64,000 nucleotides of DNA from NCBI GenBank assembly GCA_015686845.1, contig JADPRS010000001.1, positions 62,001-126,000 of the forward strand. Reading direction: 5' to 3'. Below are positions 9,354 through 19,144 of this stretch, one piece after another. Under the pieces are notes generated by a model. It saw only the letters and a list, made by a program, of their open reading frames with translations, was not told where the DNA came from and did not search any database. This stretch comes from Lutibacter sp. B2 (lineage in GTDB: Bacteria > Bacillota > Clostridia > Peptostreptococcales > Thermotaleaceae). How positions within the stretch are numbered: the stretch's first letter is position 1; every line of letters starts with the position of its first letter. A program made the position numbers and the translations under genes.

Positions 9354-9413
9354 ATATATGTACTTACGATTTTAATAAATTATATCACATTCATTATAAT
9401 TAAGTACATATAT
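9354..9413. repeat. 13-bp inverted repeat flanking the trmL upstream region
   Basis: ATATATGTACTTA at 9354-9366 and its exact complement TAAGTACATATAT at 9401-9413 are 34 bases apart. They enclose a minus-strand TATAAT that may belong to the trmL promoter. The distal arm touches the DUF362 stop codon. It could be a long hairpin or a paired operator; no function can be assigned. Confidence 0.6.
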
Positions 9414-10351
9414 TATTGATTCCCATGCAATTTCTTTATTTTATTTTTGTCTACTGCAATCTCATAATTATAAACTGCTTTGCTAACTATTGTTTCTGCT
9501 TCTTCTAGAGGAATCCCTTTTAAAATCATTTTTTCGGGCTCTGCAACCCCTATATTTTCATTATATAATTGATAGAGATAATGAATTCCTTGCGGTAAAA
9601 AACCTAACATTCTAGCACATATTGTATCCGTAGCTACTGGATCTGTCCCTGCAATAATAAGCCCTTGTATATCTACTGCTTTTCCATCTGATGGTCCTGT
9701 TCCTATCATGGTTTTATCAGCACTTACAATCGTAATATCTATAGGGATTTCTTTTGCCATTGCCACAATAAATCCATGTAAGTCATTATGAATACCTAAG
9801 TTTTTTTTTGGAAAACCATGAATTTCTGCTGGAGGCCATCCTAATGCAATATTTTTTATTCCCGCACTCATGGTTGCTTCTTCATGCTGTTTTAACTGTG
9901 TAAAAGAAATAAGCACATCAATTTCATCAATGATTTCATGGATCTTTGTTTCACAGGGATTCGTATGATCAAGTTTAAGGTTAACATATGGGCCATAGTT
10001 TAGATCTACAAACGTCACCTTCTCCTCTTTAATAATTTTATCATACCCAACATCTGATAGAACTTTAGGCGTAGGGTCTCCGCCAGAACCTACAGCAATA
10101 TATATCTTTTTTGGATTTTTATTCTTTACATAACGGATAAGTGTTCGTAATGTTTCTGGCCCTACTACAGTAGCCGTATAAGCTGGTTTTGACTTTACCC
10201 AATTGGGTGTAATAGCCACTACATCACCTTCCTTGATGATTTTATCCATATCTAGCAATTCTAGGGCTTTCACAATTGATTCTTCTTCTTTTTTCTCTTT
10301 CACAATAGCAACAACGGCTTCTTCTATTTTTCTTTTCCTTCTCATCCTCAT
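9413..10351 (-). CDS. DUF362 domain-containing protein
   Basis: A 312-residue protein with the DUF362 pattern: VAITPNWVKS, IAVGSGGDPT, and a long C-terminal half with MSAGIKNIALGWPP and IIAGTDPVATDTICARMLG. No Cys-rich ferredoxin domain is present, unlike some DUF362 proteins. The function of the family is not established. Two ATGs (10351 and 10345) are in frame after AAGGAG; the second has better spacing. The gene has a likely promoter of its own but lies downstream of nhaC behind only a weak terminator, so it may belong in part to the SDR-GcvP-like operon. Confidence 0.85.
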   Translation of the reverse strand: MRMRRKRKIEEAVVAIVKEKKEEESIVKALELLDMDKIIKEGDVVAITPNWVKSKPAYTATVVGPETLRTLIRYVKNKNPKKIYIAVGSGGDPTPKVLSDVGYDKIIKEEKVTFVDLNYGPYVNLKLDHTNPCETKIHEIIDEIDVLISFTQLKQHEEATMSAGIKNIALGWPPAEIHGFPKKNLGIHNDLHGFIVAMAKEIPIDITIVSADKTMIGTGPSDGKAVDIQGLIIAGTDPVATDTICARMLGFLPQGIHYLYQLYNENIGVAEPEKMILKGIPLEEAETIVSKAVYNYEIAVDKNKIKKLHGNQ

Positions 10352-10480: not shown

Positions 10481-11947
10481 TTATGCAATTGATTTTCCTT
10501 TTTTTCTTAATTTAACTTGCGGCTCTCTTGGGAGTCCAAATAGTGGTATGAATCTATCCCATCCAGTAAACGTAAGAATCAACATTGAACCTACTGCTAC
10601 AAATGCCATAAAATTCATCCTAATTATATCTGTAGGTACAAAATCATAAAGCGGATATACGGCTTTTGCAATTGCAACATAGAATAATATGAAACAGTGC
10701 CATGGAATTAATTGTGAACCATATACACCCATTGCATCAGCAAAAGTTGCGTTTCTTAATCTTAGTTTATACATATCTTCTTCATTTGCCTCTACATTTT
10801 CATCTGTAATCGTTTTGATAATTGGACTTATTGTAACAATCTCAGCAGTCTCATCCCCAAAAGCAGCATTCCCAAATAGGCAAAGTACTGCATTGTAAAA
10901 CATAAGCTGCCTTACATTTTTGGCCATACTTACCAACGTCTTAGATATAGGTTCAAATGCATTCATACTGTTCATGATTCCACCAAATGAAGCAACCCAC
11001 ATCATCATTACGATAGACCAACTACCTGCATCTGAGAACCCTGTATATATAAGATTTAAGAATCCATCATCCCCAGTCATAGCTGTAACAGTTCCTGCTG
11101 AAAATCCTAAAATTAGTGCAGATAATATACCTGCTCCTAAACAAATCATTGTCTGAAATCCTTTAATAGCCATTCCAATAACGATAAGCAATGGAATAAT
11201 CATATACATTGGTACACCATTTTTAACTTGCTCAAGTAAAGTTACTGCCGAAGCTCTCTCTTGAGATAAAGCATCCCAAGCTTCTTGTGGAATTGCATTA
11301 ATAGCATCAGCGGCATTTCCTACTGTACTTGGAAGTCCCATTGATACACCCACAAAATAAATAATCATTGCGGTAACGAAAGCACATATGGCTGACCAAA
11401 CGCCCTGATGTCTAATCCTATGAATAATCTCTACTTTTTGCAATCCTGAACTCAGTACTGTGGTATCTGATATAAGACCTATATTATCACCAAAACAAGA
11501 TCCACCAGCTATTGAACATACTGTTAATATGATATCTCCACCAACAATATGATTTAACCATAAAAATACGGGTGCACAAGCTGCAAAAGTTCCCCAGGAT
11601 GTTCCTGTTGCAATGGATAATATACAAGTTACTACAAATCCTACTACTGCAACTGACTTAGCTGTAACCCCCATCTTTAATGCAGCAATAATAATTGAAG
11701 CCCCAACGCCTGTTGCCATAAATGATTCGGCTAAACCATATGCAAACATTAGAATGAAAAATACAATAACAATTTCCCTTACATTATCCAGTGCAAATTC
11801 TATAATTTCTTTAAATTTATACTTTTCTGTAATCATCGCCACAATTGCTGCAACAATAGTTGCAATTGGTGCTGCTAATAATACATCTATTCCTGACATC
11901 ATTAACCCTGCGAGTACAAAAATCGGTGAAATCTTAATTAACCCCAT
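10481..11947 (-). CDS. NhaC-family Na+/H+ antiporter-like transporter
   Basis: A 488-residue, highly hydrophobic protein with about a dozen membrane segments. It has the NhaC-type features VVTCILSIATGTSWGTFA and SIAGGSCFGDNIGLISDTT and a second related half with FGGIMNSMNAFEP and NAAFGDETAEIVTISP. NhaC relatives exchange Na+/H+ or organic acids. In this operon an amino- or organic-acid substrate is possible but unproven. ATG at 11947 has GGAGG 6 bases upstream and is preferred to 11953. It is 219 bases after the ATP-NAD-kinase-like gene, across a gap with a large palindrome. Confidence 0.88.
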   Translation of the reverse strand: MGLIKISPIFVLAGLMMSGIDVLLAAPIATIVAAIVAMITEKYKFKEIIEFALDNVREIVIVFFILMFAYGLAESFMATGVGASIIIAALKMGVTAKSVAVVGFVVTCILSIATGTSWGTFAACAPVFLWLNHIVGGDIILTVCSIAGGSCFGDNIGLISDTTVLSSGLQKVEIIHRIRHQGVWSAICAFVTAMIIYFVGVSMGLPSTVGNAADAINAIPQEAWDALSQERASAVTLLEQVKNGVPMYMIIPLLIVIGMAIKGFQTMICLGAGILSALILGFSAGTVTAMTGDDGFLNLIYTGFSDAGSWSIVMMMWVASFGGIMNSMNAFEPISKTLVSMAKNVRQLMFYNAVLCLFGNAAFGDETAEIVTISPIIKTITDENVEANEEDMYKLRLRNATFADAMGVYGSQLIPWHCFILFYVAIAKAVYPLYDFVPTDIIRMNFMAFVAVGSMLILTFTGWDRFIPLFGLPREPQVKLRKKGKSIA

Positions 11948-12140
11948 ATACATCCTCCTTATTTAATATAACTTATTTTCTATTCCTAAACAATTTCACC
12001 TCCTCACTATTTATTATGTAATATCTCTCTAAAATTTAGTGAAAGATATGACAAACCTCTACTAAATAAAGTTCAACTTCTATTGTTTTGGATGTAGGAA
12101 CACTTCAAGTTAAATATTAAGAACATTCTGATAGTTCTTT

Positions 12141-12185
12141 GTATATAAAATCGATTTTATATACATCTAATCGATTTTATATACA
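12141..12185. repeat. 24-bp perfect palindrome plus adjacent partial copy
   Basis: Bases 12141-12164 form a perfect palindrome with half-site GTATATAAAATC. Three bases further on, TAATCGATTTTATATACAA at 12168-12186 repeats one arm, inside the last codons of the kinase-like gene. The transcript hairpin is AU-rich without a U-run after it, so it could be an operator or a processing/stability site for the kinase-nhaC junction as easily as a terminator. Confidence 0.8.
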
Positions 12186-13273
12186 ATTTGTTCCCTATAT
12201 CCAGTAGTAACTCTCACATAGCCTCTCAACGAAATATCAAATTCTTCATCTCCTGTATCTACGAGAAAATGTTTTCCTGATAGTTCTCGAATCTTATGAT
12301 TACTAGCAATTACTATGATATTTTCTTTCCCTACTTTCTTAATAACCTCTGAACTAATTTGTTGATTCCCTCTACCAAATAAATATCCTTGCCCTCCAAT
12401 AGGGGTAATAATCAATTTACACACTTTATCACTTATTTCTTTTAGCAATTCTTTTTCAGTTAAATCGTTTTTAACTACCTTTCTATTGCATATCAAGTCT
12501 ACTCCTAAAAGCGTATACCGAAGCCCTAACGCCTGCATAATAGGACGCGTAGTGGAACCTGGACCAATGATATATAATACGTCCTCTTTCATATGATTTA
12601 TAACATCTAATGCAATTGCTCTTTGAGCTCCTTCATCATTCATAATGCTCCCAGATTTTTTTCCCTGTAAAAACTTTGGGTCATATGGAATTTTCAAATA
12701 TCCATATAATCTTGTATTTACAATCCCTTTTCTAAAAGCATCTTCATCAATATCCATCACTTCTACTTCTTTTACTTTTGATACGTTTCTTTTAAGATAC
12801 AATAGTGCTAATTCTCCAGCCTTTTTAGGACTACTTGCATAAACGGCTGAATGAATTTTTACGCCTGCTGGAATTCCAACTACAGCTAGATTCTCTCCAA
12901 CTGCATTATAAATATCTCTAGCAGTTCCATCTCCACCCGCAAACAAAAGCAAATCTACTTTTTCTTCTAGTATCCTTTTAGCTGCCTCAATTGTATCTTG
13001 TTGATTACTTTCTCTGTCTTTTATAGTTGAAATTACCTTTATCTTAAATCCACATTCTTTCGCTTCATTTTCACCCATTTCGCCAAAATACGTAACAATC
13101 TCTATATGATCTTTTATCTCCATAAGTGCTTTTAATGCAGAGATTGCACGATTAGGCGCTTGGGGAAAGGCTCCTAATGCTCTTGCTTTATCTACAACAC
13201 CATCCGTTCCCTTTAACCCCACTCTACCGCCCATCCCAGCAATAGGATTAACAATTAGCCCTATTCTTTTCAA
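12167..13273 (-). CDS. ATP-NAD kinase family protein (AcoX-like)
   Basis: A 368-residue protein with the start MKRIGLIVNPIAGMGGRVGLKG and the diagnostic LLLFAGGDGTARDIYNAVG of the NAD-kinase/diacylglycerol-kinase superfamily. It is longer than housekeeping NadK and resembles the AcoX-type proteins seen in catabolic operons, whose activity is poorly known. The start is TTG at 13273 after AAGGATGAT. It begins 12 bases after the GcvPB-like gene, so it is tightly coupled to it. A role in supplying NADP to the operon's dehydrogenase is only a guess. Confidence 0.85.
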   Translation of the reverse strand: MKRIGLIVNPIAGMGGRVGLKGTDGVVDKARALGAFPQAPNRAISALKALMEIKDHIEIVTYFGEMGENEAKECGFKIKVISTIKDRESNQQDTIEAAKRILEEKVDLLLFAGGDGTARDIYNAVGENLAVVGIPAGVKIHSAVYASSPKKAGELALLYLKRNVSKVKEVEVMDIDEDAFRKGIVNTRLYGYLKIPYDPKFLQGKKSGSIMNDEGAQRAIALDVINHMKEDVLYIIGPGSTTRPIMQALGLRYTLLGVDLICNRKVVKNDLTEKELLKEISDKVCKLIITPIGGQGYLFGRGNQQISSEVIKKVGKENIIVIASNHKIRELSGKHFLVDTGDEEFDISLRGYVRVTTGYREQIVYKID

Positions 13274-13285
13274 TTTTAATCATCC

Positions 13286-14851
13286 TTACTTTTCTGTATA
13301 TTTTTTTAAATAACTTCTCCAAGTAATTGCCCATTTTTCTGGATCATCCATATTTGATTCATCCACTTGATGGCATGAACTTGCAAATGGAGCATTTTCA
13401 AATTTATCAGGCGTTTCATATGCTTCATTAAATATATACTTAAGTGTTTCTATATATTCGTCTAAATCTTCTTTAGATGGAGTTTCCGTAGGCTCTAGCG
13501 TCATTGGCTCCGGTATATAATAAGGATGATGACTACACCAATAATGCATACCAAAATCCATCATTCTACGTTGAATATCTCCCGTTGTAACACCTGTATC
13601 TTTCGCTAATTTTTCAAGTGTGTATCTAACTTGCTCTATTCTCTGCTTTCCTTCTATATACGGTGCATCTACACAATCCAATTCCATTAATTTTTTAAAC
13701 ATATAATTATTATTAAGTACAGCTATCTTTGCTACTTCATAAAGACCTTCTGCGCCTAAGCTTCTGATCCATGCATACGCTTTCATAATTACGGGTGCAA
13801 CGCCATTAAATGATCTAATTTTTCCAATACTATTTGGAACATCATAGTTCAAATAATATTTTTCACCATCAAAATCGATTAATGGTGCTGGCATAAATTT
13901 TTCTAGCTCTTTAGTAACCCCAACAGCTCCTGTAGCTGGTCCCCCACAACCATGTGGCGTTGAAAATGTTTTATGAAGATTAAAGTGACACATATCAAAT
14001 CCAGCTTCCTTTGCTCTTGTTACACCTAGTAATCCATTGGCATTGGCTTGGTCATAACAGCAAAGTCCTCCATTTTTATGTACTAATTCTGTGAACTCTT
14101 GTACTTTCGTATTATATACACCTGTATCTTCAGGATTTGCTACGAAAAATGCTGCTGTTTTTTCTGATACAACACTCTTAAACGCTTCATAATCTGGATA
14201 GCCATCTTTATCAGGATGAATATAAATAATCTTGTATCCTTTTAATGCAGGCGCTGCTGCATCAGAAGGATGAGAATAAATTGTAGTAATAATTTCATCT
14301 CTTTGATCTACTTCCCCATTTGCCTCATGATAAGCTCTTACAAGTGATGCCATAGCCATTATAGCCTGACTACCACCACTTGGTTGAAAACTAAAACGAT
14401 CCATACCAGATATTTCTCTCATAGCAAGATCCGTTTCATATATAATCTCTAACATTCCTTGTACAGTACTTTCATCTTGCAATGGGTGAATTTCAGCCAT
14501 ACCTGGTAATTTACCTAATTGTTCATTTACTTTCGGACTGTATTTTACAGTACAAGTCCCTTGCCCAATTTCTATATTTACATCTGCACCTAATGTTTCT
14601 TGAGACAATCTCACGTAATGTCTTAGCACTCTCGATTGAGAAATTTCCGGAAGATTTACAGCTTCTTTTCTTAACATACTTGAAGAAATCTTTGATACTC
14701 CATCTCCTACTTCTTTTGTAATTTCATCATCAGCCTGTGGTACTAAAACGCCTCTTTCTCCTTTTTTACTTAATTCAAATATGATAGGTTCATCCCACTT
14801 GGCTTGATGAAAACCCGTTCTAACTTTCAAACTTCTATCTATTCGTTTCAT
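13286..14851 (-). CDS. Divergent GcvPB-like PLP-dependent decarboxylase subunit
   Basis: A protein of about 521 residues related to subunit 2 of two-part glycine dehydrogenase. The PLP lysine is conserved in NLHKTFSTPHG (about K294), as are the Asp of YDQANAN (about D267) and the late IPEPMTLEPTET. Other blocks differ from what I know of true GcvPB: YPLGSCTMKYNPK has become EIGQGTCTVKYSPK, the substrate-side AAGAHGE has become PSGGSQAIM, and GGGGPG has become GCGGPA. It is thus likely a PLP enzyme, but the substrate may not be glycine. GAAAGGG fits the ATG at 14851 better than 14860. It is paired with the GcvPA-like gene; no gcvH or gcvT is adjacent. Confidence 0.85.
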   Translation of the reverse strand: MKRIDRSLKVRTGFHQAKWDEPIIFELSKKGERGVLVPQADDEITKEVGDGVSKISSSMLRKEAVNLPEISQSRVLRHYVRLSQETLGADVNIEIGQGTCTVKYSPKVNEQLGKLPGMAEIHPLQDESTVQGMLEIIYETDLAMREISGMDRFSFQPSGGSQAIMAMASLVRAYHEANGEVDQRDEIITTIYSHPSDAAAPALKGYKIIYIHPDKDGYPDYEAFKSVVSEKTAAFFVANPEDTGVYNTKVQEFTELVHKNGGLCCYDQANANGLLGVTRAKEAGFDMCHFNLHKTFSTPHGCGGPATGAVGVTKELEKFMPAPLIDFDGEKYYLNYDVPNSIGKIRSFNGVAPVIMKAYAWIRSLGAEGLYEVAKIAVLNNNYMFKKLMELDCVDAPYIEGKQRIEQVRYTLEKLAKDTGVTTGDIQRRMMDFGMHYWCSHHPYYIPEPMTLEPTETPSKEDLDEYIETLKYIFNEAYETPDKFENAPFASSCHQVDESNMDDPEKWAITWRSYLKKYTEK

Positions 14852-14885
14852 TCTTATCATCCCTTTCTATCACTAAATTTAATAC

Positions 14886-16289
14886 TTACGACTCAACAAC
14901 TTCTGCTATAGCTGATACCAAGCGATCAATATCATCTTTAGTATGAATCTCAGTAACACAATATAGGGCACTTTCTCCTAATTGTGGAAAATCTTTTGAC
15001 AAATCTTTTCCACCAAAAATTCCCTTATCTAATAATTTTTTGTTGATTTCCTCAACAGTCTTACCCGTTTCATTAAAATCAACAGCAAATTCTTTAAAGT
15101 TTACTGTATCGAATTTAGAACCCTTAACCCCTTTAATCTGATCTAACCTCTTAATCGCATATTGAGAATTTTGCATAATTGTTTGACCTAATTCCCACAT
15201 ACCTGTTGGACCCATTAATGACAAATATACACCTGCTGTAATTCCCCACAATGCTGATTGTGTACCAACATATTCTTTTCCTCCTTCTCGTAAGTGTCCA
15301 AAAGAAGTTCTATCATATGCAACATCACTAAAACCATATTCACCTTCAACAGAAGTTTTTGCAATACCAAATAGACGAGATGGGAACTCCATTACAAATT
15401 TTTCTTCATCACGAGTAGCCATAAAACCAGCTTGACCTCCACCATAGTTCATATGCATTCCTAATGGCTGTAAATCTCCACAAATAATATCTGCACCATA
15501 TTGACTTGGCGGTGTTAATACGCCTAATGAACTTGGATCTACGCCTACAACACTAAGTGCATCTACCGCGTGTGCAATATGAGCAATTTCTCTACCATGG
15601 TCTTCAATAAATCCTAAGAAAGAAGGATTTTCTATGTACACACAAGCTGTCTTATCAGAAATTTTTTCTTTTAAATCGTTCAAATTTAACTGACCTGTTT
15701 TTTCATCATAATTTACTTCAATAAACTTAATATCTGGTGAACAATAATTTTTCATAACTAAATATCTTTCTGTATCAATTGACTTTGGAACCAATGCTTC
15801 TTTTCTTCCGGTCATTCTTGCTGCCATTCTAACTGCTGTAGCTGCTGCTTGAGCCCAATCCATCGTTGGCACATTTACTACATCCATATCTACCAATTCA
15901 GCTACTAAACTTTGATATTCAAATAATGTTTGAAATCTTCCAAAATCGTTATATGGCTCTCCGCCATACGCCGTTAAGAATTCACCTCTTGAATTAATCT
16001 CATCACAAACTGCAGGGACATAATGCTGCCAGCATCCTGCTCCTAAGAAATTCAAATAATCTTTGCATGACTTATTTTTGCTTAAAAGCCCTTCCATATA
16101 TCTTCTTAATTCATACTCAGATTTAAAAGCTTTAGGAAGATTCATATTTTCTTTTAATTTTATTTCCTCAGGTATTTCTGCATGAAGTTCTTCTAAATTA
16201 TTTAAACCAATTTCTTTTAGCATTTCTTCTTGTACTTCTACTACAGAGTTCGGAATATATGGATGATTCTTGAATCCTTGTATAGCCAT
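14886..16289 (-). CDS. Divergent GcvPA-like subunit
   Basis: A 467-residue homologue of subunit 1 of two-part glycine dehydrogenase (YIPNSVVEVQEEMLKEIG at the N-terminus; LNFLGAGCWQHYVPAV at about 79-94; MDVVNVPTMDWAQAAATA further on). The family segment TAYTPYQPEISQGTLQ is replaced by TAYGGEPYNDFGRFQT at about 106-121, a strong departure in the region near the active-site interface. Length is normal. RBS GTAGGAGGTATAAAG precedes the ATG. It is 38 bases after the SDR gene and 25 before the GcvPB-like gene. Automatic tools will probably label it GcvPA; I would not assume glycine decarboxylation. Confidence 0.85.
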   Translation of the reverse strand: MAIQGFKNHPYIPNSVVEVQEEMLKEIGLNNLEELHAEIPEEIKLKENMNLPKAFKSEYELRRYMEGLLSKNKSCKDYLNFLGAGCWQHYVPAVCDEINSRGEFLTAYGGEPYNDFGRFQTLFEYQSLVAELVDMDVVNVPTMDWAQAAATAVRMAARMTGRKEALVPKSIDTERYLVMKNYCSPDIKFIEVNYDEKTGQLNLNDLKEKISDKTACVYIENPSFLGFIEDHGREIAHIAHAVDALSVVGVDPSSLGVLTPPSQYGADIICGDLQPLGMHMNYGGGQAGFMATRDEEKFVMEFPSRLFGIAKTSVEGEYGFSDVAYDRTSFGHLREGGKEYVGTQSALWGITAGVYLSLMGPTGMWELGQTIMQNSQYAIKRLDQIKGVKGSKFDTVNFKEFAVDFNETGKTVEEINKKLLDKGIFGGKDLSKDFPQLGESALYCVTEIHTKDDIDRLVSAIAEVVES

Positions 16290-16327: not shown

Positions 16328-17122
16328 TTAAGCAATTCCTCCACCATCTACAACAATTGCAGTACCTGTAATCCAGCTAGACAAATCACTTGCTAAAAAC
16401 AATACAGCCTTTGCAATATCTTCTGTAGTTCCTAGTCTTCCAAGGGGTCTATCCTTACCACAATCTTTTAAATATTCTTCTTGTGATTTTTCATCAACCA
16501 CAAGACCTGTTTGACGTCCTTCATCTCTAAGCATTGCCGTATCTGTATCTCCAGGATTAACACTGTTTACACGAATATTTTGTGCACCATGATCAATGGC
16601 CATTGCACGCGTTAAATTAACAATCCCACCTTTAACTGCACAATAAGCGGCTGCATCATCTCCACCTTTTAATCCCCATCCTGATCCAGTATTGATGATA
16701 CTGCCTCCGCCACCTTCTTCCATGACAGGAATTACATATTTAGATAATAAATAAGTTCCTTTCAATCCTACATCTAATACAAAATCCCATTCTTTTTCTT
16801 CCAGTCCAACTACAGTTTTTCTTACTGTTACACCCGCATTATTAAATAAAATATCAATACGTCCAAAATCTTCTTTAATTGAATCTACAACTTTTTTTAC
16901 ATTTTGAGGAGATGTAACATCGCATTTGTAAAACGTTGCAACTCTACCTTCTTTTCTAATGTTGTCAGCTTCTTTTTCTCCTTGATCTTGTACATCTAAC
17001 ATTACAACCTTTGCGCCAAAGGCAGATAAAAGTTGCGATGTAGCCAAACCAATACCTCCTGCAGCTCCTGAAATTACAGCCACTTTACCTTCTATAGACA
17101 AGAAATTTTTTTTTTGTAACAT
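16328..17122 (-). CDS. Short-chain dehydrogenase/reductase (SDR)
   Basis: A 264-residue classical SDR: cofactor motif SGAAGGIG near residue 19, LDVQD where the second strand usually selects NAD(H), NNAG at the fourth strand, Ser in NTGSGWG and the catalytic YCAVKG (YxxxK). The C-terminus ends TGTAIVVDGG as usual. It should oxidise or reduce an alcohol/ketone; the substrate is unknown. It is the first gene of the sigma-54-type operon, with AGGAGGGG before the ATG, so it likely acts in the same pathway as the GcvP-like pair. Confidence 0.93.
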   Translation of the reverse strand: MLQKKNFLSIEGKVAVISGAAGGIGLATSQLLSAFGAKVVMLDVQDQGEKEADNIRKEGRVATFYKCDVTSPQNVKKVVDSIKEDFGRIDILFNNAGVTVRKTVVGLEEKEWDFVLDVGLKGTYLLSKYVIPVMEEGGGGSIINTGSGWGLKGGDDAAAYCAVKGGIVNLTRAMAIDHGAQNIRVNSVNPGDTDTAMLRDEGRQTGLVVDEKSQEEYLKDCGKDRPLGRLGTTEDIAKAVLFLASDLSSWITGTAIVVDGGGIA

Positions 17123-17198
17123 AGTAACCCCTCCTTATATGTTTAAATACTTTTACAAGCACTAAAAAACCATTTCTATTCTATCATCTATTTTTATA

Positions 17199-17215
17199 TG
17201 CATATATCATGCCAA
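17199..17215 (-). promoter_or_regulatory. Sigma-54 (-24/-12) promoter of the SDR-GcvP-like operon
   Basis: On the minus strand TTGGCATGATATATGCA has the invariant GG and GC separated by exactly 10 bases and matches TGGCA at -24. It lies 78 bases before the SDR start codon, giving a leader of about 65 bases. The divergently encoded gene is a sigma-54 activator, which supports the assignment. Confidence 0.85.
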
Positions 17216-17320
17216 AGAATATATATAAAATTATGTTCTGATGCTCTCTTTACTTTTCAACATTCTTTATACTTATTAAAGACTATTATATTGAAACATT
17301 CTTTTATTACAATTATTTTA

Positions 17321-17348
17321 TGCCAACTTTGGCAAATCATTTGCCAAA
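17321..17348. promoter_or_regulatory. Overlapping palindromes, likely activator-binding site (UAS)
   Basis: TGCCAA-CT-TTGGCA at 17321-17334 is a perfect inverted repeat. It overlaps a second perfect one at 17328-17348, TTTGGCAAA and TTTGCCAAA around TCA. The sites are about 110-135 bases upstream of the sigma-54 -24 element, the usual distance for an enhancer site, and the second covers the -35 of the activator gene. Confidence 0.8.
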
Positions 17349-17369
17349 ATTTTCAATATCTTATATACT
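17341..17369 (+). promoter_or_regulatory. Promoter of the sigma-54 activator gene
   Basis: TTGCCA and TATACT with a 17-base spacer on the plus strand. The -35 is inside the TTTGCCAAA arm of the palindrome, so the activator probably represses its own synthesis when bound. Confidence 0.7.
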
Positions 17370-17413
17370 ATTATTAAACAATTTAAACAATTTTCTGAAA
17401 AAGGTGATTATAT

Positions 17414-19144
17414 ATGACTTATTTAAAAACCATTCAATCTACATTACAAAAACTCATTTTAAGTATTTCAAAATCTATTAACTTTGAAGTAGCCATATTT
17501 GATAACGAATGTAATTTAGTTACATGTACTGAGACTTATTTAAAACACAAAGGCAGTACAGTACATATTCCTTCTCTACAAGAAGTTCTTTCATATGGAG
17601 ATGTTTTAGTAAATAAACCTGGATATATGAAATCTTGCATGGGCTGTCGTTTTAAAGAAGATTGTCCTGCTACCATTGAAATTCTTAATTGCATCAAATT
17701 ATCTAATGAACCCATTGGAATTATTGCTTTAACCTCTTTTAATGAAGAAGGACATAAAAGACTTAGCGAAAATATTGACATTTATCTTGATCTCCTGAAA
17801 GAAATTTCTGATCAAATTTCAATAATCATATGTAATAAAAATTATAATCCTCATTCAATAGAACTTAATAAAATACTTCAAGTAGTAATGGATACATCTC
17901 CCGATGCTTTAATTATTACAAATAACAAAGGAATCGTTACGCACTATAATCCTACAGCTTTTAATTATTTTTCATTTTGTAAGCACTATGAAAAATCAAT
18001 TCATCAAATTTTACCAAAGGTTATCGTTGAAGACATATTAACTGGAAAAAATGTAGCCGCTGGTTATAATCCACATAAAAACCTTCATTGTATTATCACT
18101 TCAATAGCCATAAAAGATAACGAAAAACTCTCTTCAACTATTATTAAGATCCAAAAGAAAAATCCTCTAACGATCTCAAATAAAACAAACCTCATTGCTC
18201 CTATAACATCAGATCTTTTTAAGGGTAATAATAAATCCATAAAAATAATAAAAAAACAAGTTCAAAAACTTAAGCATAGTAACTCTTCTATCCTTATTAC
18301 AGGAGAAACAGGTACTGGAAAAGAAATTTTGGCAAAAACAATTCATGCTCATAGTAGTAGGGCTCATGCACCTTTTATCCCTATTAACTGTGCAGGTATT
18401 CCAGAAACTCTTTTTGAAAGTGAATTATTTGGATATGAGGAAGGTGCATTTACAGGGGCAAAAAAAGGAGGGAAACTTGGACGTTTTGAATTTGCACATG
18501 GTGGTACTCTCTTTTTAGATGAAATAGGAGAAATGCCTTTATTTATGCAATCGAAGCTATTACGAGTTCTTCAAGAACACACCATCGAAAGAGTTGGTTC
18601 TACTCGTTCACTTTCAATAGACATTAGAATCATAGCAGCTACAAATCAGAATCTTGAAGAAATGGTTGCGAACAAAAAATTTAGAGAAGATTTATTTTAT
18701 CGTTTAAATGTTATCCCTTTTCACATACCCCCATTACGTAATAGGATAGACGATATTGAAATTTTATCAAAAGAATTTTTGCATAAATATAACATACAAC
18801 TTCACAAAAACATATCTACTTTTTCAAAGGAAACCCTTTCTGTATTTCATATATATGAGTGGCCTGGAAATGTTAGAGAATTAGAAAACACAGTAGAATA
18901 TGCTGTAAATATGACTGAGAATGATTTTATTAGCGTAGACAATCTTCCTCAACGTATATTAAATAATATTCCTACATCAGATATATCTAAAATCAAGAAA
19001 AAGATAAGAAACATAGAATTTGATACAATTAAAGCTACACTAGACAAATATGGTTGGGATGTACATGGTAAGACGAAAGCAGCGAAAGAATTGGGTATAG
19101 GATTGAGAACATTATATAGAAAGATAAAATCTTTCGAAAAATAA
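17414..19144 (+). CDS. Sigma-54-dependent transcriptional activator with Cys-containing sensor region
   Basis: A 576-residue bacterial enhancer-binding protein. Residues 1 to about 150 form a sensor region with a cysteine cluster CMGCRFKEDC near residue 76. A PAS-like segment follows (VVMDTSPDALIITNNKGIV), then an AAA+ domain with Walker A GETGTGKE, the sigma-54-contact motif EGAFTGA and Walker B TLFLDEIGEM. The C-terminus is a Fis-type helix-turn-helix (GKTKAAKELGIGLRTLYRKIKSF). It is divergent from the SDR-GcvP-like operon and should switch it on in response to an unknown signal; a redox, metal or small-ligand cue is possible through the cysteines. RBS AAAGGTGAT. It ends in a bidirectional terminator. 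Confidence 0.95.
   Translation: MTYLKTIQSTLQKLILSISKSINFEVAIFDNECNLVTCTETYLKHKGSTVHIPSLQEVLSYGDVLVNKPGYMKSCMGCRFKEDCPATIEILNCIKLSNEPIGIIALTSFNEEGHKRLSENIDIYLDLLKEISDQISIIICNKNYNPHSIELNKILQVVMDTSPDALIITNNKGIVTHYNPTAFNYFSFCKHYEKSIHQILPKVIVEDILTGKNVAAGYNPHKNLHCIITSIAIKDNEKLSSTIIKIQKKNPLTISNKTNLIAPITSDLFKGNNKSIKIIKKQVQKLKHSNSSILITGETGTGKEILAKTIHAHSSRAHAPFIPINCAGIPETLFESELFGYEEGAFTGAKKGGKLGRFEFAHGGTLFLDEIGEMPLFMQSKLLRVLQEHTIERVGSTRSLSIDIRIIAATNQNLEEMVANKKFREDLFYRLNVIPFHIPPLRNRIDDIEILSKEFLHKYNIQLHKNISTFSKETLSVFHIYEWPGNVRELENTVEYAVNMTENDFISVDNLPQRILNNIPTSDISKIKKKIRNIEFDTIKATLDKYGWDVHGKTKAAKELGIGLRTLYRKIKSFEK

Follow-up and report, generated by a model that had tools for sequence, protein, structure and literature searches.

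Results

Gene layout and promoters

The window analysed here is a stretch of 64,000 nucleotides from the genome of Lutibacter sp. B2 (3.24 Mb, 98.4% complete), and coordinates refer to it unless a contig or locus is named. The start codons of a predicted sigma-54 activator gene, to the right, and of a metabolic operon, to the left, face away from each other across a gap at 17123-17413. The relevant features are as follows.

9413-10351, minus strand: DUF362 protein, possible operon end; not found in several orthologous loci
10481-11953, minus strand: NhaC-family transporter (family match)
12167-13273, minus strand: ATP-NAD-kinase-family protein (family match)
13286-14860, minus strand: GcvPB-like subunit (family scores)
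14886-16289, minus strand: GcvPA-like subunit, paralogous to the glycine-cleavage P protein (family scores, identities)
16328-17122, minus strand: short-chain dehydrogenase (SDR), first operon gene (Pfam/NCBIfam)
17199-17216, minus strand: putative sigma-54 (-24/-12) promoter of the operon, TTTGGCATGATATATGCA (sequence and conservation)
17320-17335, plus strand: half-sites 1 and 2 (dyad 1), ATGCCA-ACTT-TGGCAA, including the palindrome at 17321-17334; found in 15/21 and 15/21 orthologues, respectively
17328-17348, no strand assigned: perfect palindrome TTTGGCAAATCATTTGCCAAA, equal to half-sites 2 and 3; unique in the genome, shuffle chance 0.002
17341-17356, plus strand: half-sites 3 and 4 (dyad 2), TTGCCA-AAAT-TTTCAA, 21 bp from dyad 1; found in 20/21 and 11/21 orthologues
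17341-17369, plus strand: putative sigma-A-type promoter of the activator gene, with -35 TTGCCA (17341-17346), a 17-bp spacer and -10 TATACT (17364-17369)
17414-19144, plus strand: sigma-54 activator, 576 aa (Pfam/NCBIfam, orthologue alignment, structure models, fold search)

Read from left to right, the gap holds the -24/-12 element, about 100 bases of AT-rich DNA and the segment ATGCCAACTTTGGCAAATCATTTGCCAAAATTTTCAATATCTTATATACT (17320-17369), followed by the activator start at 17414. All the elements that an earlier note on this DNA had described were found in place. The gene for sigma-54 itself, rpoN, whose absence that note had regarded as fatal to its reading, is present in the host genome (Pfam PF00309, E=1.4e-16; C77:56556-56693), 5.3 kb to the left of the window.

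For comparison, we used the N-terminal part of the activator as the query against 297 genomes of the order and added two named Marinisporobacter MAG contigs, the intergenic regions of which proved identical to two already in the set; distinct regions were counted once. The same divergent arrangement of activator and operon was found in 21 distinct intergenic regions from about 20 species and seven families, this locus included. The operon core, consisting of the dehydrogenase, GcvPA, GcvPB and the NAD-kinase, is nearly constant, and in many loci an NhaC-family transporter lies close by.

The GG-N10-GC promoter that had been proposed for the operon is conserved throughout this set. Its GG is the complement of 17212-17213 and its GC that of 17200-17201, at a spacing of exactly 10 bases, and transcription is expected to start at about 17189. 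The pattern TGGYA-N7-TGC occurs on the operon strand in all 21 regions, against 0.17 expected from shuffles.

The sigma-A promoter of the activator gene likewise bears out the claim that its -35 lies inside a palindrome, the hexamer falling within 17328-17348; transcription from this promoter is expected to begin about 7 bases beyond 17369. The fusion of the -35 with half-site 3, combined with a 17-bp spacer to a TATAAT-like -10, is preserved in 20 of the 21 regions, the remaining one having an 18-bp spacer.

The predicted operator

The earlier note had posited two overlapping perfect palindromes built on TTTGGCAAA. Both exist, but in the second, TGCCAACTTTGGCA (17321-17334, half-sites 1 and 2), the arms TGCCAA/TTGGCA are only 6 bases long and do not include the full TTTGGCAAA. 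The longer palindrome has two 9-base arms and a 3-base centre (strictly, arms of 10 around a single base), and in Markov shuffles of the intergenic region, an inverted repeat as long and GC-containing arose in 0.2% of cases. The same note had suggested a search for this palindrome upstream of other sigma-54 promoters; the 3.24 Mb genome contains no second copy within 3 mismatches, so that 17328-17348 is the sole site. Among the relatives, a single locus (L018) comes close to the perfect symmetry, and elsewhere the palindrome is imperfect, making its perfection nearly particular to this genome.

What is conserved among the relatives refines this picture: the predicted operator appears to be a ladder of four half-sites more than two overlapping palindromes. 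With the best sigma-A promoter close to each activator start as the anchor, we aligned the regions and scored the conservation of each column. The resulting pattern, TTGYCA-N4-TGnCAA-N5-TTGYCA-N4-TnnCAA (17320-17356 here), comprises four TTGnCA half-sites in alternating orientation, 10-11 bp apart and all facing the same side of the helix. Half-sites 1, 2 and 4, which are not favoured by the anchor, match at five or more of six positions in 15, 15 and 11 of the 21 loci, respectively, when about 2.7% is expected per position; the matches of half-site 3 in 20 of 21 loci are partly imposed by its role as a -35 and by the anchoring there. The columns upstream of the ladder are nearly flat, such that the ladder stands at fixed offsets from the activator promoter between non-conserved flanks; the orthologous intergenic regions showed no further conserved block.

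Dyads 1+2 and 3+4 each span 16 bp and are set 21 bp, or two helical turns, apart, whereas 2+3 spans 17 bp. Both spacings are strongly over-represented, with 27 tandem 16-bp dyads against 0.37 in shuffles and 19 of the 17-bp dyads against 0.33. We lean tentatively towards the tandem 16-bp dyads as the dimer sites because two loci of one family (L019 and L020) retain the activator and the -24/-12 element with a ladder reduced to half-sites 3+4, and another (L013) has an extra complete dyad. Additional TTGnCA-N7-TGnCAA dyads occur in L019 and L020 farther upstream of half-site 3, and the reduced ladder, alongside a diverged helix-turn-helix (HTH), suggests that the geometry of the operator has changed in these two loci. 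Two further loci (L024 and L025) show no clear ladder although the activator and the -24/-12 element are present.

The distance from the ladder start to the -24 element is 105 bp here and 105-162 bp in most relatives. In L026 and L027, the operator is merely 37-38 bp from the -24 element, which is unusually short for an enhancer-type site.

In the host genome, the ladder at up to 1 mismatch was found nowhere else, and at 2 mismatches the counts did not exceed those of a reversed-pattern control. A wider regulon in the host was accordingly rejected, and because the ladder is confined to this locus, the regulator looks dedicated to the SDR-GcvPA-GcvPB operon. Additional ladder matches at 1 mismatch are seen in relatives.

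The activator

The activator combines a cysteine-bearing GAF-like domain, a PAS-like region, an AAA+ domain and a C-terminal Fis-type HTH at about residues 515-576. The AAA+ domain scores 238.9 bits against Sigma54_activat (PF00158; cut-off 20.2) and its GAFTGA motif is intact in the alignment; the HTH scores 37.9 bits against PF02954 (cut-off 22). Judged by the AAA+ domain with GAFTGA, the Fis HTH, the presence of rpoN and a -24/-12 target with an upstream site, the protein classifies as a bacterial enhancer-binding protein. Identity with either of two characterized activators was rejected: the NCBIfam equivalog score for PrdR is 394.3 bits against a cut-off of 795, with an alignment from residue 141 onward only, and that for NifA is 333.8 against 528.85. 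The score for NtrC is under the family cut-off, too.

Residues 1-145 were modelled as a GAF-like domain (pTM 0.77), and this assignment comes from the fold alone, no Pfam family matching the domain at its cut-off and a sequence search of the PDB giving no convincing match. In the fold search, the model best matched SpoVT (Z 13.7, 2.7 A over 121 residues) and the GAF domain of NifA (8jrc; Z 13.2, 3.5 A over 130), many GAF-like folds being tied. Cys75, Cys78 and Cys84, which form a C-x2-C-x5-C motif (residues 75-84, 17636-17665), are invariant in the 21 orthologues and fall in a low-confidence loop of the predicted domain. Our guess is that this motif belongs to a metal, Fe-S or thiol (redox) sensor.

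The operon and its GcvP-like enzyme

Both subunits of the GcvP-like enzyme exceed their family thresholds (GcvPA, 499.7 bits against 364; GcvPB, 570.7 against 441). The GcvPA-like subunit shares 66-80% identity with its operon orthologues and only 37-39% with the GcvPA located beside GcvH in relatives. No PF01597 match, the mark of the glycine-cleavage H protein, was found in the 98.4% complete host genome, when 13 of 14 control genomes were positive; among other operon-bearing genomes, two also are without a match and three have weak matches only. The absence of an H protein in the host and the low identity to GcvH-linked GcvPA together suggest that the enzyme probably has a role outside the glycine cleavage system, at least in this organism.

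The host encodes a second GcvPA/GcvPB-like pair (C71:45274-47984), and the GcvPA subunits of the two pairs are 56% identical; both pairs belong to a paralogous group apart from the GcvH-linked GcvP of relatives. The second pair adjoins genes for a DUF819 membrane protein and an M19 dipeptidase. Within the operon, a perfect 26-bp palindrome, TGTATATAAAATCGATTTTATATACA (12140-12165), lies between the NAD-kinase and NhaC genes.

Discussion

The most probable reading of this control region, in our estimate, is that it works in two directions, with the adjacent activator driving the operon through sigma-54 and shutting its own promoter. Sequence and conservation show the two promoters, the operator with its overlap of the -35, the presence of rpoN and the confinement of the operator to this locus; from them, we infer binding by this activator, activation, repression and a signal. 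The activator would be made at a basal level from the sigma-A promoter at 17341-17369 and would bind the four-half-site ladder at 17320-17356, most likely in the form of a pair of dimers from which the hexamer is nucleated. Reception of a signal by the GAF/PAS-like sensory part would engage the activator, which, through DNA looping, would contact the RNA polymerase-sigma-54 complex at 17199-17216, some 140-160 bp away as counted from the operon start, and thereby switch on the SDR-GcvPA-GcvPB-NAD-kinase-NhaC operon. With half-site 3 serving as its -35 and half-site 4 lying in the promoter spacer, the bound activator would also shut off its own synthesis. The proposal of the earlier note that one protein activates the operon and limits its own level is thus supported by the comparative evidence.

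Alternatively, the ladder could serve activation only, the overlap with the -35 having little effect or even helping the sigma-A promoter. Binding of an activator close to a -35 need not repress strongly, and compact, AT-rich intergenic regions favour such overlaps. Nevertheless, we regard this possibility as unlikely. The -35 is itself a half-site in nearly all orthologues, and in most species the hexamer reads TTGCCA or TTGTCA rather than TTGACA, which makes steric autorepression of the activator promoter likely; by analogy with PspF, a protein flanking and covering the -35 should block the sigma-A polymerase. Conservation of the overlap between -35 and operator across seven families is what autorepression predicts and, given that the activator site and the activator -35 have stayed fused over this range, self-limitation looks like a product of selection rather than an accident.

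Two other readings concern the identity of the conserved sequence. The ladder could be the site of some other regulator of the activator gene, which we consider improbable. A global regulator is unlikely because the host ladder, at up to 1 mismatch, occurs only at this locus; furthermore, the ladder tracks the activator gene across families, even in two loci (L021 and L022) where the first operon gene differs, and sigma-54 activators as a rule require a site upstream, for which the regions offer no other conserved block. The perfect palindrome could also be taken for a two-way sigma-54 promoter, given that TTTGGCAAATCATTTGCC fits GG-N10-GC on both strands. This fit holds for the present sequence and for L018, that is, for only 2 of the 21 orthologous regions, and two matches on the activator strand equal, and do not surpass, the shuffle maximum of 2. 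At the other loci, whose half-sites read TTGTCA/TGACAA and the like, the GG is lost but the TTGnCA ladder and the TATAAT are kept; we therefore rejected this reading, which we hold to be extremely improbable.

Autorepression by a sigma-54 activator has precedents, and the design of such a switch is already known. The control region of PspF has a divergent layout like that of the present locus. In the pspA-pspF region of Escherichia coli, as here, two upstream sites accompany a sigma-54 target promoter, and binding of PspF at the pspA enhancer has been shown experimentally to regulate its own expression negatively (PMC3709507). Unlike the activator described here, with its GAF/PAS-like sensory part, PspF is devoid of a sensory domain and is kept inactive by PspA; the present locus is further distinguished by the half-site TTGnCA and by a -35 hexamer that itself is a half-site. 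NorR at norVW, and NorR2, for which negative autoregulation has been predicted (PMC1274295), similarly combine a divergent sigma-54 activator, tandem sites and a -24/-12 promoter, but NorR recognizes GT-N7-AC sites, serves another operon and signal, and has been described in proteobacteria. NifA and NtrC share the AAA+ domain and the Fis HTH with our activator, the N-terminal model of which matches the GAF domain of NifA. The sites of NtrC span 17 bp, the same as half-sites 2+3.

The available part of a survey of clostridial sigma-54 activators (Nie et al. 2019, PMC6615313) describes 39 groups (PrdR, OrdR, AcoR, SarR and others), mostly one-component regulators adjoining the catabolic operons that they control, with sites mostly 100-250 bp upstream. 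The 105-162 bp distance of the ladder is close to this norm, whereas the commonest motif in that material, TGT-N10-12-ACA, differs from the TTGnCA-N4-TGnCAA found here. The 39 groups of its Table 1 include none that controls an SDR-GcvPA-GcvPB-NAD-kinase-NhaC operon (PMC6615313), and a literature search on this operon returned nothing relevant. As far as these sources extend, the pair of regulator and operon is apparently undescribed, and the ladder supplies a sharply defined operator candidate for it. Attention is also drawn to a presumably inducible operon: the enzyme at its centre is similar to glycine decarboxylase yet occurs in genomes without an H protein.

More speculatively, with odds that we would place somewhat below even, the operon could encode a distinct catabolic pathway built on an H-protein-free P-protein paralogue and sensed via the GAF-like C-x2-C-x5-C domain. 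If so, the activator would define a new group of sigma-54 activators in Clostridia, and the operon would point to a so far undescribed enzyme that decarboxylates or condenses amino acids. In two relatives, amidohydrolase (Amidohydro_3) genes lie downstream of the operon (L081:9200-10879 and L082:11321-12988), a possible clue to a step preceding the pathway that uses an amide or N-acyl substrate.
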